Below, piece by piece: positions 10,601-53,222 of a stretch of DNA of 64,000 nt. Both the position numbers and the translations under genes were made by a program. Within the stretch, counting starts at the first letter, position 1. Each line of letters begins with the position of its first letter. The DNA comes from Phytoseiulus persimilis (Eukaryota; Arthropoda; Arachnida; Mesostigmata; Phytoseiidae): positions 7,812,001 through 7,876,000 of the forward strand of contig CM075103.1 in the NCBI GenBank assembly GCA_037576195.1. The letters run 5' to 3'. Under the pieces are notes generated by a model. It searched no databases and was not told the origin of the DNA. It saw only the letters and a program-made list of their open reading frames with translations.

Positions 10601-13600
10601 TTCAAATGTCACCCGAAGCTCATTTGCATCCATCTAGCACTGCACCCTGAACATGGTGGAATAAGCGATAAGAAGCTTAGTCTTCTCCCTCCGCGATGCT
10701 TCTAGCCATGAAGTACAGCGAGCTTTACGCTCCACGTGTATCCCCTACCCGCATCCATTCCACGCTTCTAATCGATACAATTCCATTCAGAATTTACCGT
10801 AAAATTCATGATGGCAATCGCTTGCAGTCGAGTCGGAATCCGATACGGCTGCTTCGATTTTTCCGGTCGAGGCATAAACCTCTTCCCTCGTTGGATACCA
10901 AGTGGAATCGCGCTAAGTGGGTCGATCACTGCCTTTCGAGTCCGCCGATCGAGGAGTCGAACTCGACTTGTAGCAAACGACAACTAAAAATCTTGTTATA
11001 CCATGGTGGGCAATGCCTTTGGGGAAGCTGGAGCGGCAGAGCAGATGATATCGCGCTTGGAAGCGTCACAAAGAAGGGAGAGTTGCGGGGTGTTAAGCCA
11101 AGAGGTGGGTGTCGCGCAACTTGGCAAGGGGCTCTTGTCTTAGTGCGGGCGAACGTCATCCGGCCCTGAAGCATATTAGAGGATCCAGCGTTCTGAGCAT
11201 CGGTTTGTTTCGGGAACTACGCTCAGATGGGGGGGAAAAAACGGGAAACAACATGGGTAGATGGGTAGATTCCAAGGCAGCGGCTAGAAATTTCGGCGAG
11301 CTCGTGTACTCGACCGGGAGGCTTCGAGCCTTGCGGACTTTCACTATGAAGCCCTCGGGAGGGAAAACTTCCCTTTGCGATGAATTAGGACGTCTTTCCA
11401 GAAGGCCAGAAGAAAAACTACAGTAGAATATTGATTGTATCAACGCAAGCTACATCAAATCTTGCGATTCAACCCTCAACTACATCAACTTCTTCCGATT
11501 CCAACTCTCAATTTCATCAATCATTCTTCAAACGTATGCGTTGATTGGTTATAATCGAAGTCGCAGTTCTCAAATTACTCGGGATGTATGCCGGAAGGTT
11601 TTTACCCACTCGGAGGCACCTTCCGCTGTGCTGCATCGGGGAATCGAGAGCCTGTGCAGCACCTTGGGAGCAGGATAAGCCTGTTGATGCGTGCCCGATG
11701 TTCACTTCTAGAGTCGTTTATTCCCGAACATCAGCGAAATCATGTGTTGAACGGAACGGAGCTCCGAAAGATGTTCGTATGCACCAAGTTGGGTCGTCCG
11801 TTGATCGCATTGGATACCAGACGGTTTTAGGTCTACTCGCGCAGTTAGTGATTCCCAGAGTAGCCGAGCTTCAAGCCGAGTTCCTAGGTGGAAGCATGTT
11901 TCAATAGAAGGAAGAGCTATACCGCTCTTCACCCCCGTGGACGGAACCGACGTGATGGTAAGAACGCTCTTCCCCACAAAAGTCGGAGAAATATGAGCCA
12001 CATGGAACAACTGACGAAATACGGCCTGGTGTCAGCGGCCGAGCTGGTTGCCGTTGACGTAGCCTGGCCACGGACGCCAGTCCCGCAAGCCCCACCTTAG
12101 GGCCATGAGCCTGAAACACCATACTACTCCATGGGCCTCTTCGGGCTCCTCAGCCCCTCGGAGTTGTCAGTTGTCGGAGTTGTTGGAGTGAACCTTGGAG
12201 GATGGATAAATATTCGTGGCGAGACCGCGTCTCACCCGCCCTCCGGCCAGCTCGTTCGCCCCGTAAAGTTGCCGGCCAGATCCTGGCTTAGCGCACCAGC
12301 TGTTGAGAGCCAAGTTTTACAACACGGGCACGGCCTGTCAACACAGAAGCTTTATGGAACGAGTCTCATGCACAACGCTCGGCTTTCCACCGACGTTCCC
12401 GGAGAACTTCACTCGGAGCAAGGATGGTGCCCATGCGAAAAAATTCTTCGCCCTCCGTCAGCCGCGGTAGACCTGCGGCTAGCTGTAGGCGGTTGAGCAC
12501 GTCTGAACGTGGAGCGCGAACCGCACTGACCACTCGACGGTCCCGTCAGCGGAGCCTCATTCTACTCGACGCCGATCTCCTGAAAGAGATCCGAGAGCTC
12601 TCTTGAAAACAATTGGGAGGAAGGATCGGCCTCCAACGCAGAGAGACTGGCGGCGACAAGACGCAAGGAAGGTGTCTGGATGGTAACAGTGTCAGGGGAG
12701 CAGCTTGCTCACTAGCTGGTCCCCTCGGTGGCGATGATATAACTCCTCATTGAAGTGTTCTCATTCGAGTGACGGGAGTCAAAGTCAACAATAGAGCGGA
12801 GCTCACAGAGGAGGATTGAGGCCGTGAGCTGGTCAGGCAAGCAGCTACTGAGATGTGGGAGGGGGTCTACTCGAACAGGAGGACACTCGTGGAACACACG
12901 AGCCCATAGTGTTTGCCTGAGGCATCAGGAAGCGGCGCTTCAAACTCCGCTCATCGGATCATGGTGCCAGTCCGGCATTCAGTTCCAAAACTCTCAGCGC
13001 TCCGATCGCAGCGGGGCGGGCGGGTGGCCTGTTGCTCATGAGATATCGCAATATTCGTTATCAGCACTTCGGCTTTCGTTTCTCGTTGAGGCTCATGGTC
13101 ACACGTGTTATTCGATCACGTTTTTTGCTCTCGGGCTCAAGCCGTGAGCGGAGGCAAGCCGCCACTTGTTGCGGGGCGTTGGGTTCCGATTGTCGCTTTT
13201 GATAAGTCATCGGCTCGCCGAGTTACTCGGCGTCCTCTGAAGCCTTCAACCATCCATACACGTACGCGTGCCAAGCATCTAATTGCTCCATGATATCTCA
13301 CTGAACCAATCCTGGCGACGAGGGAACTAATCCCCCCGAGTTTCGCCGCATCAGGAGGATTCAACAATCTCGCTTAAGTGCAATGACGCATGCTCTTCTG
13401 TATTTTTCTTTCGTTTCCATACTCCATCCTTACTATCGACGCCATCATGGTGAAGATGCCCTATCAAAGCCATATCTGAGACGAAAGCTTGGTCTTTTAG
13501 CTTGAACTGCAACATGGGGGATCGTCGTCCGGGTTATGTATTGGAACCCCGCGCTCTCTACAAATCTCGCACAAACCGAAAACCGATCCCCCCGTCGGAA

Positions 13601-20411: not shown

Positions 20412-20465
20412 GTAACGATGAGGTGAGCCGGCCCGACATGATGCCAGCCCGACATGATGCCAGCC
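20412..20465 (+). repeat. Tandem GCCCGACATGATGCCA units; partner at 21.68 kb
   Basis: About 2.5 copies of a 16-base unit (GCCCGACATGATGCCA). The first copy with its upstream flank (ACGATGAGGTGAGCCG) is repeated in the same orientation, diverged, at about 21674-21706. Confidence 0.65.
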
Positions 20466-20655
20466 CGACTCCTTCGCTTCTCGTCAAGGTCATGGGATAC
20501 TCACTCCCATACCCTACCGTTTTCCGTGGCGTGTCCAGGAATCGCGAAGGGAGGGGGGATCTCCATTGGACCAGGTCGGGTATTCTCCCTGATGGTTCGA
20601 TGAGTGTCCATTGAGGGCGAGTGAAGCGGAAGGAGAGTACCTATTCAACAGTCTA

Positions 20656-20760
20656 GGACATTTTGGCGCAGACATTTTGGCGCTGGACATTTTGGCGCGA
20701 ACATTTTGGCGCAACGGACATTTTGGCGCAGGATATTTTGGCGCAGGACATCTTGGCGCA
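20656..20760 (+). repeat. Tandem array, 7 copies of GACATTTTGGCGC
   Basis: Seven units of 13-18 bases, differing in one or two spacer bases, with one unit carrying GATATTTT and one GACATCTT. It forms the left inverted end of the element at 20649-21162. Confidence 0.85.
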
Positions 20761-21098
20761 GATTCAGATGAAGCAGTAAGGACTCACCAAAACAGTATTG
20801 TTCAGTGGCTATCGATGCTTTCATGTGACGAATATGACCACCGGAGCTTTCATCAATCGTCCCAATTCCCACTTGCACGAAAAAGTTCGCTCGAATCGCT
20901 CACTCGGAGAGTTACTCGCTCTGAAATGCACAGGCGCCGTCGATGCAGACTCGGCAGTGATCCTCGGTTGAAGAACGCATGTCAGCATGGGCTCCCGATC
21001 GGAATGTCGACGTACGCTGGGAGAACACGCTGTGGGACTCGGTCGGAACGAATTTCAAGATGTCCACAATTATCACTTGTCTATCTAGGCGACGGACT

Positions 21099-21156
21099 CC
21101 AAAATGTCTTGCGCCAAAATGTCTCGCGCCAAAATGTCTGCGAAAAAAAATGTCCG
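21099..21156 (-). repeat. Inverted array, 4 copies of GACATTTTGGCGC
   Basis: On the plus strand the units read CCAAAATGTC with TTGCG, TCGCG or TGCG spacers; the outermost is decayed to AAAAAAATGTCCG. Together with the 20656-20760 array it gives inverted ends. Confidence 0.8.
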
Positions 21157-36348: not shown

Positions 36349-36615
36349 CAGAGGCGCACCCAGCTTTTTGGGGGGGGGGGGGGGGGGGGGGCGAGGATGT
36401 GATGATGATGCCGATGATGATGATGATCATCGTCTCGAGATTCTCATGACGCAATCATCATGGTTTTCAAACCTGTGAGACTGTCCTGATAAGACTGAAT
36501 CTTTGTGGAACTTTTTCGTCCATTAAAGTAGAATATAATCCACCCTTCCCAATATTATCGAAGAGTTTTTTTTCATGGCCCCCTTGCCCCCCCCCCTCCC
36601 CTGGGTACGCCACTG
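36349..36615. mobile_element. hAT-type miniature inverted-repeat element, 267 bp, with both ends
   Basis: The left end is CAGAGGCGCACCCAG and the right end reads, inverted, CAGTGGCGTACCCAG. Flanking 8-bp repeats GGTGAATC (36341-36348) and GTTGAATC (36616-36623) match at 7 of 8 positions. An 8-bp target duplication and CAGNGGCG ends are the marks of hAT transposons. It has no coding capacity and would need a transposase from elsewhere. Inside are a 22-G run, a GATGATG-rich stretch and a C-rich stretch near the right end. A related inverted copy lies at 43021-43218. Confidence 0.8.
36370..36391 (+). repeat. 22-base G run
   Basis: Uninterrupted G tract inside the hAT-type element. Length is prone to sequencing error; the inverted copy has a shorter run broken by A/T. 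Confidence 0.8.
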
Positions 36616-43020: not shown

Positions 43021-43218
43021 CCATGGCCCCCCCCAAAACTCTCCGATATATTCTACTTTAATGGACGAAAAAGTTCCACAAAGATTCAGTCTTATCAGGA
43101 AAGTCCCACAGGTTTGAAAACCATGTTGATTGCGTCATGAAAATCTCGAGACGATGATGATCATCATCATCGACATCATCATCACATCCTTGGTCCCCCC
43201 CTAAAAAAAAAGCTGGGT
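43021..43218. mobile_element. Truncated inverted copy of the 36.3 kb hAT-type element
   Basis: In reverse orientation it matches the element at 36349-36615: poly-T/G start, GATGATGATG stretch, then GGTTTTCAAACCTGTG and CTTTTTCGTCCATTAAAG. It lacks about 20 bases near the GAATATA end and both outermost termini. The C-rich tracts also differ in length. At its 43218 side the sequence turns into a perfect palindrome instead of the expected GCGCCTCTG end. Confidence 0.8.
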
Positions 43219-45301: not shown

Positions 45302-46469
45302 CTAGACAGCTTGTCCCGCTCGCTCGAAGGATCGGGACGTGCTGTCCATTGAGTTGTAGGAGGACAGCGCAGAAAAATGAGCACTCGTGGAGTACGCGAT
45401 GGCGAGATTCATGTCAGGGGATCGTGCGGCCCCTGGATTCCTTCGTCTTCGGTCCACGTTAACGTCGGATTGCTCAGAGAAATCCTGAAGCCAAAGAACT
45501 CGTGAGGCGAACAGAGCTCGCTCCCTCCGCAAAGAACGCTTGATTTCGGCCCAGAGCAGGATGAAAATGGTTATCACGACGATTGTCACCACCACAAGCT
45601 CTCGGGTGCTGTCTCCATTCCTTCTGACGGAAAACTTCAGCCGGCAGGTACCTGGAAACGTTAAGCCAGTTGTGACCCAATCCGAATAGAGTTCAGGACC
45701 TGGATATCTGAGATCCGGATCCTGTTCGATCAAATGCGTGCAGATGAACGCGAATCCTCAACGAACCTAGCTCGACGCAACGTGGTGACCTCTCGTGGCT
45801 GTCGCATTCCAACGACTTGAAGTTTATCTCTAACCCGGAAGAGGACGGGGACTTGGCGGAACATTCCCACAATGATCCAATCGGGTCTGTGGTATCATCT
45901 GCGGGAAGGAAGAGCATTAAAATGAAAAGTGCGCCGCTGTTGTCGTCTGGTTCTTCAGCCTCGCATTCAGACAATGTTCCGAGTCGGGAGAAAACACAAA
46001 ACTACTCACTCTTGTTGATGCAATTCACGCACTCGGGGATGCCGCTCAGTTCACAGTTCGTGCATTCCATTGCTCCGGTGCCGTTGAGAGCGCTTGCATA
46101 GAACGTTAGTGAACTCATTCCATTCAAATCTCCGAATCCTGGTTTATCTGGATCGAGAAGCTTCTGTGAGCGTGGCTCTACGAGGCACGATCGTTACCAA
46201 ACGTACTCGGACAATCATCAACGACCTCCTGCTATGAAGTCATCTGACTCTTGGCTTACCACTCCAAACTGATTGAACTCACTTGAGCACGGCGAGTGTG
46301 ATTCCTGATGAGCTGAGCTACCAGAAGTTTGTTCATCTTGAGTCTCGTTGGAAGGAGCTTTCGGGGAGTCCAGTATCGAGGTGGGATCCGGGTTTTGGCT
46401 TCCACTGGAGACGAAGCAAGCGACGAATATCACGACTACGATGAAACATTTCGACCCCATGGTTGTCAT
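45302..46469 (-). CDS. Type I membrane protein with Cys-rich ectodomain, family unknown (4 exons)
   Basis: Proposed exons, 5' to 3': 46469-46283, 46147-46010, 45898-45767, 45651-45302, giving 268 residues and a TAG stop. Residues 1-24 are a signal peptide (MTTMGSKCFIVVVIFVACFV, then Ser/Gly). A Ser/Thr/Glu-rich linker follows. Exon 2 has four close Cys (ECTNCELSGIPECVNC) and N-x-T sites; exon 3 has three more Cys after TDPIGSLWEC. Exon 4 has a hydrophobic span (VVVTIVVITIFILLW) followed by KRSLRRER, a typical stop-transfer with the tail in the cytoplasm. All three introns (135, 111 and 115 bp) are phase 1, as in many modular extracellular proteins. Donors 1 and 2 are GTGAGT; donor 3 (GTTCGT) is weak. 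Exon 1 could instead end at GTAAGC (46260), but that breaks the phase. The nearest AATAAA seen downstream is about 460 bases away. A surface receptor or adhesion role is inferred from topology only. Confidence 0.62.
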
Positions 46470-51130: not shown

Positions 51131-53222
51131 CTAAGGACGATCGATTCTTTTATGAGCTGCCGTGGCCCCAAGGAACACGGATGCCAAGCACTCTCGTCGG
51201 ACTCTCGAAACCCCGATTCAGAATCCCGATTGAACCCATTTTGCGTTTCCGAGAGCTGCCATGTTTCTTCTGTCCGTTCTCCTATGTGTCCACCACTGCA
51301 GCTCAAGCCCTACGTATCACTCAACGCCGAATACGAACTGCTACAGTGGGTTGCTTAAACCTCGCGAAGAGTAGCGATAAGCTACAGCCGAGAGGGAGTT
51401 CCATTTCGAGCTCTTTTCGAGCCGGCACGTAGTCGTGATGCTGCATGGCGGTATTACAGATGTGGGTGGCGGATGCAAACCTCCCTTGACAAACCGTGGG
51501 GATTAGGGGTTGGATTCCTCAGTTGATCCCTTTTTTTGGGAAATCGTGTGTACCCCGTTCTCTCAACTGGGGCCTTTATCTCTCTTGGATCGTTCACGCT
51601 GTTCCCCTCATGCCATTGCAACGACCGGTCACCCCCCTCTAGCCCGATTGCCGCGAGCCCGAATACCGCGAGCGGAAGTTTGATTCGTCTCTCCTCCTGT
51701 TCGCAGCCTGTGTGCCATGGGCCTCGTTCAGGAGAGCAGTGTCGCAAGGATACTTTCAGTGCGGTCCATCGTCACGAGACAGCGAGAGCGACTCATGCCG
51801 TGAAACAGGCCGAAATGATGTATAACTGGAGAAAGCCCAGCGGAAGCAACATGGGCTCCTTCGGGCTCCCGGCATTCGGGCTGGAGGAAAGTTCCCCTGC
51901 AACCAACACCGTGAGCCGCGGCGGGTATCTACATATTGCGACATTCACTGCTGCGATCGGAGGCAAGACGGTCAACCGCTCGGCTCGCGGCGTGCTTGAA
52001 GCCAAGACTGAGTTTCAAGCAAACTCCCGGGAACCTGTTCATGGGGGAAATGTTCGCCTTGCGAGAATAGCCGCCATGCGCGAACAGACAATGTTGCCAA
52101 CGCTCCGTTCCCGCGCTCCACTATCCATGTATTATGACCAGCGCCACCTACCAGCTCCAAACCAAAACGCCCGCAACTTTCCAGCGCTCGATCATAGATG
52201 CATTTTCTACCATCTGATGCACTCCCAAGACTTCTACGTATCGATGAGTTCCGAAAACTTCACACAAAAAAACACGCATCTACGTCTGTGAAGTTTGCGA
52301 GCTTTCTGAACTGAATAATGTAGCGAAGAGCAGGGCTGTCAACTCGTCGCGATCACGAGCCCAGAAGTCGTGGGCGAGTCACGGCGAAATCGCGCAGGCT
52401 GACAATATCGCTTCAAAACCGTGGAGAGCTATGATTTCGGCGGCGGGTTGAACGAGCGGATCAGATAAAGGCCATCGAAGACGCCGAGGGCGCGAAACCA
52501 CTTCTCCTCCATTCTGCTATGGGTCCAATCTACGGGATGGAGTGGAGTGCGCTGGAATAGTGTCATGAAATGCTGAAAATTGAAGGGATAATCGAATAAC
52601 TGAATTCGCGTTCATCTCTGAAGATGTGCAGTGTCGCGCCAATAGTAGGAGTCCGAGAACCGCTGACTCGCGATTCTCTCCCAGCCCTAATGATGAGATC
52701 TTTGATCCTAATAGCCCAGTACTGAACTAAGTTCGGAATCGTTTGCAAGAAGTACTCATTGGTGACAATCTGCCGCTTCTCGGGTTCGCGGTCACGAGTC
52801 CCCTGCCGTCCTAGCAGTGAGAACGGAGAAAGGAAATACTTTTTCCAGAACTGTATCCTTGTTTGTACCCGATATGTTCTTGGTGGCTGTACTGCCAGAA
52901 ACTGAGGAAGTTCAGGTCGACCCTCCCTCCGCCGGCTCGGGGAGATAGTGGATTCACTCAGACCCTTATCTCATTCCAGTTATGTTCTTCATGTCAAACG
53001 TTCTCAAACTTCTGACTCCGTAAGCCTATTCGAGCTGGTGTCATCTTACAGCGTACGCTCGGATCCTCCAGTCAAGGGGCGATCGAAAATAACCGATCTT
53101 CTTACGATGAAACCGGAGCTCTTCTGCCGCTTGATTCACCCTCCACTCGACATCCTTGTCAACGTTCCATTCTTCAACTACATATCGATTTCCGGTCGCT
53201 TGCATTCGTTGAGGACCTGGCT

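Follow-up and report, generated by a model that had tools for sequence, protein, structure and literature searches.

SARAF (TMEM66) is usually treated as a single gene and, to our knowledge, is present in a single copy in vertebrates. The purpose of its luminal part is usually regarded as unclear. The mammalian protein is described as being located mainly in the membrane of the endoplasmic reticulum (ER) and as speeding the slow inactivation of CRAC channels; in the same account, its cytosolic part binds STIM1, and how strongly the channels are inhibited is modulated by the luminal domain (PMC8391525). The last two strands of the human luminal domain, termed the luminal switch, are reported to be swapped, leading to a dimer, and a deletion of residues 150-165, carried by the monomeric mutant, removes both strands (PMC8391525). 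Two PPXY motifs of human SARAF are described as targets of WW domains of the NEDD4 family (PMC7504102). No published expansion of SARAF was evident from titles and the beginnings of abstracts in mostly non-subscription literature. Judged from its sequence, the Phytoseiulus persimilis gene presented here is a divergent SARAF-derived paralogue from a large, rapidly diverging family rather than a novel type of protein.

The gene is located on the minus strand of the window, i.e., the whole stretch of 64,000 nucleotides that was analysed. When the model was rebuilt from the window DNA, four exons joined into one frame of 278 amino acids followed by a stop codon, exactly as proposed in the first-pass annotation, and a purpose-written splice-aware aligner agreed with that annotation in placing all three GT-AG introns in phase 1. 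Exon 1 (46283..46469) contains the start codon, a signal peptide-like segment (approximately residues 1-24), a low-complexity stretch, and, closely preceding intron 1 (46178..46282, 105 nt), Cys61. The first half of the SARAF-like domain is encoded by exon 2 (46010..46177), with SARAF cysteines 1-3 (Cys101, Cys104, and Cys115) and, in addition, Cys112, which is present in the window protein only. Following intron 2 (45899..46009, 111 nt), the second part of the domain is encoded by exon 3 (45767..45898), with SARAF cysteines 4 and 5 (Cys131 and Cys150) and Cys159, a cysteine of the subfamily. Intron 3 (45652..45766, 115 nt) lies directly before a G-x-C motif, and exon 4 (45302..45651) specifies the last SARAF cysteine, Cys165, the membrane span, the presumed cytosolic tail, and the stop codon. 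An AATAAA sequence is found 456 nt past the stop. Exon 1 could be established for part of the 11 open loci of the subfamily described below; those relatives for which it was modelled or proposed begin with a hydrophobic segment and carry a Cys close to the end of this exon, as in the window gene. A plus-strand open reading frame (45748-46101) overlaps exons 2 and 3 and is taken as chance because the homology sits on the minus strand.

The order of features given in the first-pass annotation, namely a signal peptide, a Cys-rich part, a membrane span, and a basic tail, is borne out by hydropathy and residue counts. The 19-residue hydropathy maximum (2.83) covers residues 181-199, and the predicted span comprises approximately residues 180-200 (45539..45601, minus strand). 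A signal peptide and a single span with a luminal N-terminus are predicted on the basis of hydropathy only, and all three N-glycosylation sequons lie N-terminal to the span. The tail of 75 residues contains 11 K/R versus 8 D/E. The basic juxtamembrane stretch KRSLRRER (45518..45541, minus strand), a candidate arginine-based ER-retention signal, is followed by ALFASR-LWLQDFS; both are near-identical in the paralogue C1:3.557. The cysteines of the window protein are arranged as CxxC-x7-CxxC (residues 101, 104, 112, and 115) and are followed by those at positions 131, 150, 159, and 165, with Cys61 before intron 1. The pattern originally reported thus holds for the CxxC pair, whereas the spacing is seven and not eight residues and four and not three further cysteines follow, in addition to Cys61. 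The Cys-rich domain does precede the span, as was stated; the term ectodomain that was used for it should probably be replaced by luminal domain because SARAF is described as mainly ER resident (PMC8391525).

Few recognisable genes seem to be present in the window, although short exons would escape the test used: of its 32 stop-to-stop frames with at least 150 amino acids, the nine longest plus another of 179 amino acids were compared with Pfam, and none of these 10 gave a match at E 0.01. Two inverted arms (36383-36537 and 43047-43201), each of 155 nt, are 94 % complementary and 6.5 kb apart. Their sequence is an interspersed repeat: all 40 copies scored, out of 545 candidates, match it with at least 94 % identity. 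Short tandem repeats are present at 11450-11529, 20427-20469, 20655-20762, 21099-21139, and 51641-51673. The repeat at 20655-20762 has the unit AGGACATTTTGGCGC and that at 21099-21139 the unit CCAAAATGTCTCGCG; the two seem to represent a similar unit on opposite strands.

Searches with the window protein as a single sequence gave no match to SARAF in Pfam or in the PDB. The matches obtained were at chance level, both in these databases (PHD_4 in Pfam, E 0.4; MTH1880 in the PDB, E 1.9) and in NCBIfam (an antiporter subunit, E 0.056; a surface protein, 0.23). The best Pfam match of the window core alone was again PHD_4 (E 0.046), short of the cut-off of that family, and neither the protein nor its core reached the Pfam gathering score for PF06682, the SARAF family. 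TM2D proteins, TMEM9, PTTG1IP, and TNF-receptor modules had been considered as candidates before SARAF. A profile search with the Cys-rich domain had been suggested in the first-pass annotation, in which the protein was called an orphan of no nameable family. Performed with a profile of six family members, this search ranked the SARAF luminal domain 6o2u first among 177,635 PDB sequences (E 0.0063; next unrelated match, 0.85), contrary to the latter claim. Using eight members, an E-value of 5.2e-9 was obtained for 6o2u, the next unrelated match being at 7.9. No PDB chain was found with a two-member profile made of the window gene and C1:3.557; the link to the PDB therefore requires the wider family.

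Profile-profile comparison leads to the same family. HHalign of the family cores against seven SARAF cores, namely the human stretch and six from the same genome, gave 98.4 % (E 4.7e-15), and a value of 95.5 % was obtained when longer family sequences were aligned with the short SARAF cores. The value changed little upon removal of the human row (98.2 %) or of a bridging locus (97.9 %), or when the family side was reduced to the window gene plus the paralogue closest to it (97.0 %). Since these comparisons have a single target, the controls weigh more than the E-values: a reversed profile gave 0.14 %, 40 full shuffles gave at most 0.63 %, and 40 profiles in which the cysteine columns were fixed and the remainder was shuffled gave at most 4.69 %. 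Pfam SARAF was matched by three of the eight family cores (best E 1.7e-9) and by one of six longer family sequences (0.0081). The bridging locus, C3:11.139, was found with Pfam SARAF at E 0.0089 and has introns 2 and 3 of the subfamily, its extra Cys, and a short tail with PPSY; by these features, it is a bridge between the SARAF-type loci and the divergent subfamily. In a joint alignment of 15 rows, Cys occupies five of the six SARAF cysteine columns in 14-15 rows, while the second column is shifted between the two groups. In a tree of the 15 cores, all eight subfamily members fall to the same side of a weakly supported branch (82/68); of the 12 inner branches, 1 was starred. At the level of profile homology, the Cys-rich part of the window protein is a diverged SARAF luminal domain. 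The orphan label fails because of this domain and because 12 related loci, two of them degenerate or incomplete, are present in the genome. An apparent orphan with an odd cysteine pattern thus becomes placeable when its paralogues from the same genome are used as a profile.

The genome searched comprises 181 Mb in 127 contigs. The divergent family has 13 loci including the window gene, 11 of which have an open domain. Ten of these were found with the core profile and one, C1:9.064, which that profile missed, with C3:11.139 as the query (score 136, compared with no more than 55 for 56 null stretches of window DNA). The latter locus has all seven core cysteines intact, and its HHalign value to the SARAFs is 73.5 %. 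The remaining two loci were counted as degenerate or incomplete: C3:11.132, in which the C3:11.139 query revealed introns 2 and 3, has lost three core cysteines and would require odd extra introns, and C3:16.339 contains an in-frame stop and is modelled without the later exons. Four further loci were left out of the count. With C3:11.139 as the query, C2:10.762 (E 0.03) reached a score of 92 and exceeded the null (at most 55), but four of the seven cysteines in the core of that query are missing from it; it is possibly a degenerate relative. No convincing gene was seen at C1:9.354 (score 70, in-frame stop) or C3:21.617, and nothing over the threshold at C3:23.038. SARAF-derived loci form local clusters at C3:11.131-11.139, C3:16.334-16.344, C4:5.975-5.979, and C4:24.789-24.799; open and degenerate copies adjoin in three of these four.

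Several observations argue that the gene model is more than chance. Protein matches in the relatives stop close to the predicted exon borders. Using the window protein as the sole query, the splice-aware aligner placed three phase-1 introns at the positions of those in the window gene in C1:3.557 and C4:5.975, and both models reach a stop codon. In C3:16.343 and C3:16.335, N-terminal introns were modelled elsewhere than intron 1 of the window gene, which leaves introns 2 and 3 as the general ones. For both of these, the phase and, to within one residue, the column of the alignment are shared by 11 of the 13 family loci. Eight of the 11 open loci had been used to build the core profile, and their own scores therefore carry no proof. 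C3:11.134 and C3:20.607, which are outside that set, scored 94 and 111, respectively, while 56 stretches of other window DNA gave at most 29 under the same settings. The window gene and C1:3.557 are the closest pair and the only one compared; they have a pS of 0.655 and a pN of 0.322 over 257 codons, with a corrected dN/dS of approximately 0.27 at a dS near saturation. This pair is under purifying selection. The shared introns, the held-out scores, and the selection justify the statement in the first-pass annotation that the agreement of the exons is unlikely by chance, and the rebuilt model and the relatives together support a spliced minus-strand gene for a type I membrane protein. That the locus is a pseudogene or that its model arose by chance is highly improbable; two sister loci are indeed degenerate or incomplete, but the window gene has a full frame and splice sites, introns in common with its relatives, and the signature of purifying selection. 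Its exons are symmetric in phase, as had been noted. Their borders are nevertheless not those of modules: introns 2 and 3 cut a single SARAF domain throughout the subfamily, and a reading in terms of exon shuffling was rejected for that reason.

Pfam SARAF detected seven further loci in the genome, which we call SARAF-type. Their luminal domain is open in six (C3:31.578, C4:24.789, C4:24.798, C2:50.848, C3:4.886, and C1:7.508), while C4:24.797 contains a stop inside it; two matches, C2:3.10 (E 1.05) and C97 (E 3.88), were left out of the count. The total is thus 17 open loci with a SARAF-type domain, 11 from the subfamily and 6 of the SARAF type, in addition to three degenerate or incomplete ones; all these counts are lower bounds. 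One locus each was detected for Orai (PF07856) and for the SOAR domain of STIM (PF16533). In the core tree, five of the six SARAF-type loci group with human SARAF, whereas C1:7.508 falls with the window subfamily on a branch that is not starred (89/94). A phase-2 intron lies directly before the first domain Cys in four SARAF-type loci, and the fourth SARAF cysteine is lost or shifted in C4:24.798. The Gly-rich tail motif G-L-x-G-Y occurs in C3:31.578, C4:24.789, C2:50.848, and C1:7.508 and is absent from C3:4.886. The domain of this last locus is found toward the C-terminus of a 571-residue stop-to-stop frame, the N-terminal part of which is long and of low complexity.

The reading that we consider somewhat better than even is that the window protein would derive from SARAF, reside in the ER, and modulate or antagonise store-operated calcium entry. 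We infer ER residence, fold, and effect on calcium from sequence features. The signal peptide would bring the N-terminal part into the ER, where it would fold as a SARAF-type β-sandwich with the three SARAF disulphides and a probable fourth, Cys61-Cys159. One helix would span the membrane, leaving the basic tail of about 75 residues on the cytosolic side. Duplication has produced the subfamily of 11 open loci with their shared introns, beside the six open SARAF-type loci. With the luminal head and the span present and the long tail missing, the protein might act as a competitor of SARAF or tune STIM from within the ER lumen. As the window protein is devoid of the SARAF effector parts, competition or tuning would be expected rather than replacement of SARAF. 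A wider reading, which we consider less likely than not, is that in this animal lineage SARAF, a brake on calcium entry, has grown to at least 17 open loci while one locus each was detected for STIM and Orai, and that the entire subfamily, with the window gene among its members, has replaced the effector tail of SARAF by short new ones; these proteins would then be natural SARAF antagonists or lineage-specific tuners of calcium entry.

The function of the window protein may also have moved wholly away from calcium. As the main alternative, the SARAF fold could have been re-purposed for a fast-diversifying receptor or adaptor of the cell surface or the secretory pathway, apart from STIM and Orai and involved, for example, in recognition or reproduction. 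The low identity of seven relatives to the window core (19-49 %) points to rapid divergence of the copies. This divergence, the local clustering of loci on C3 and C4, where degenerate copies occur as well, and a tail in which nothing of the SARAF cytosolic region can be recognised would suit such a role. The constraint on the only pair compared (pN 0.322 versus pS 0.655) and the near-identity of the juxtamembrane stretch in these two proteins argue against it, and we regard it as possible but rather doubtful. A different role is suggested by the tails of 7 of the 11 open subfamily loci, among which C1:9.064, which contain at least one PPxY or LPxY. Combined with the targeting of the PPXY motifs of human SARAF by WW domains of the NEDD4 family (PMC7504102), these tails could make the proteins adaptors of a NEDD4-type ubiquitin ligase, with a SARAF-fold head and a PY tail. 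The window member would have lost the motif: neither PPxY nor LPxY is present in its tail or in those of three other members, and its closest paralogue, C1:3.557, is also without a PY motif. This mechanism therefore cannot be that of the window gene itself, and we hold the adaptor role to be unlikely.

The window protein and SARAF (PF06682; luminal domain in PDB 6O2U, 6O2V, and 6O2W) have a predicted type I topology in common. The six disulphide cysteines of SARAF are all kept, and the W-x-C and G-S/T-C motifs and an LTF/LTL strand at the start of the domain are found both in SARAF and in the window subfamily. By sequence, the luminal domain is also the same in the SARAF-type loci of this genome. 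Unlike SARAF, the window protein has two added cysteines. One, which precedes the final SARAF Cys by six columns, is present in all eight subfamily cores and is shared with C1:7.508; the other, Cys61 near the end of exon 1, has a similar counterpart in the relatives with a modelled or proposed exon 1. The simplest inference from these two is that they probably form the fourth disulphide, Cys61-Cys159. The distance from Cys165 to the span is approximately 15 residues, whereas the 135-residue construct used to crystallise the human domain continues for 34 residues past the same Cys, possibly including residues of a tag. Judged by length only, there would be little room in the window protein for the luminal switch of SARAF. 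The SARAF-type gene C3:31.578 also seems to lack this switch, and its loss may therefore predate the window subfamily. On the cytosolic side, the PY motif that SARAF shares with most subfamily tails is eroded to TSRSF (45326..45340, minus strand) in the window protein, where the alignment places PPPSY in C4:5.975 and C3:16.343; its tail also lacks the Gly-rich motif that is kept at four SARAF-type loci. The long cytosolic domain with which SARAF binds the SOAR of STIM1 is without a counterpart, its place being taken by the basic tail of 75 residues. A genome with many SARAF-domain proteins in which the luminal domain has been kept and the STIM-binding tail changed or dropped provides a natural experiment on the role of the luminal domain in isolation. 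The gene is of interest to specialists in calcium entry and in gene-family evolution.
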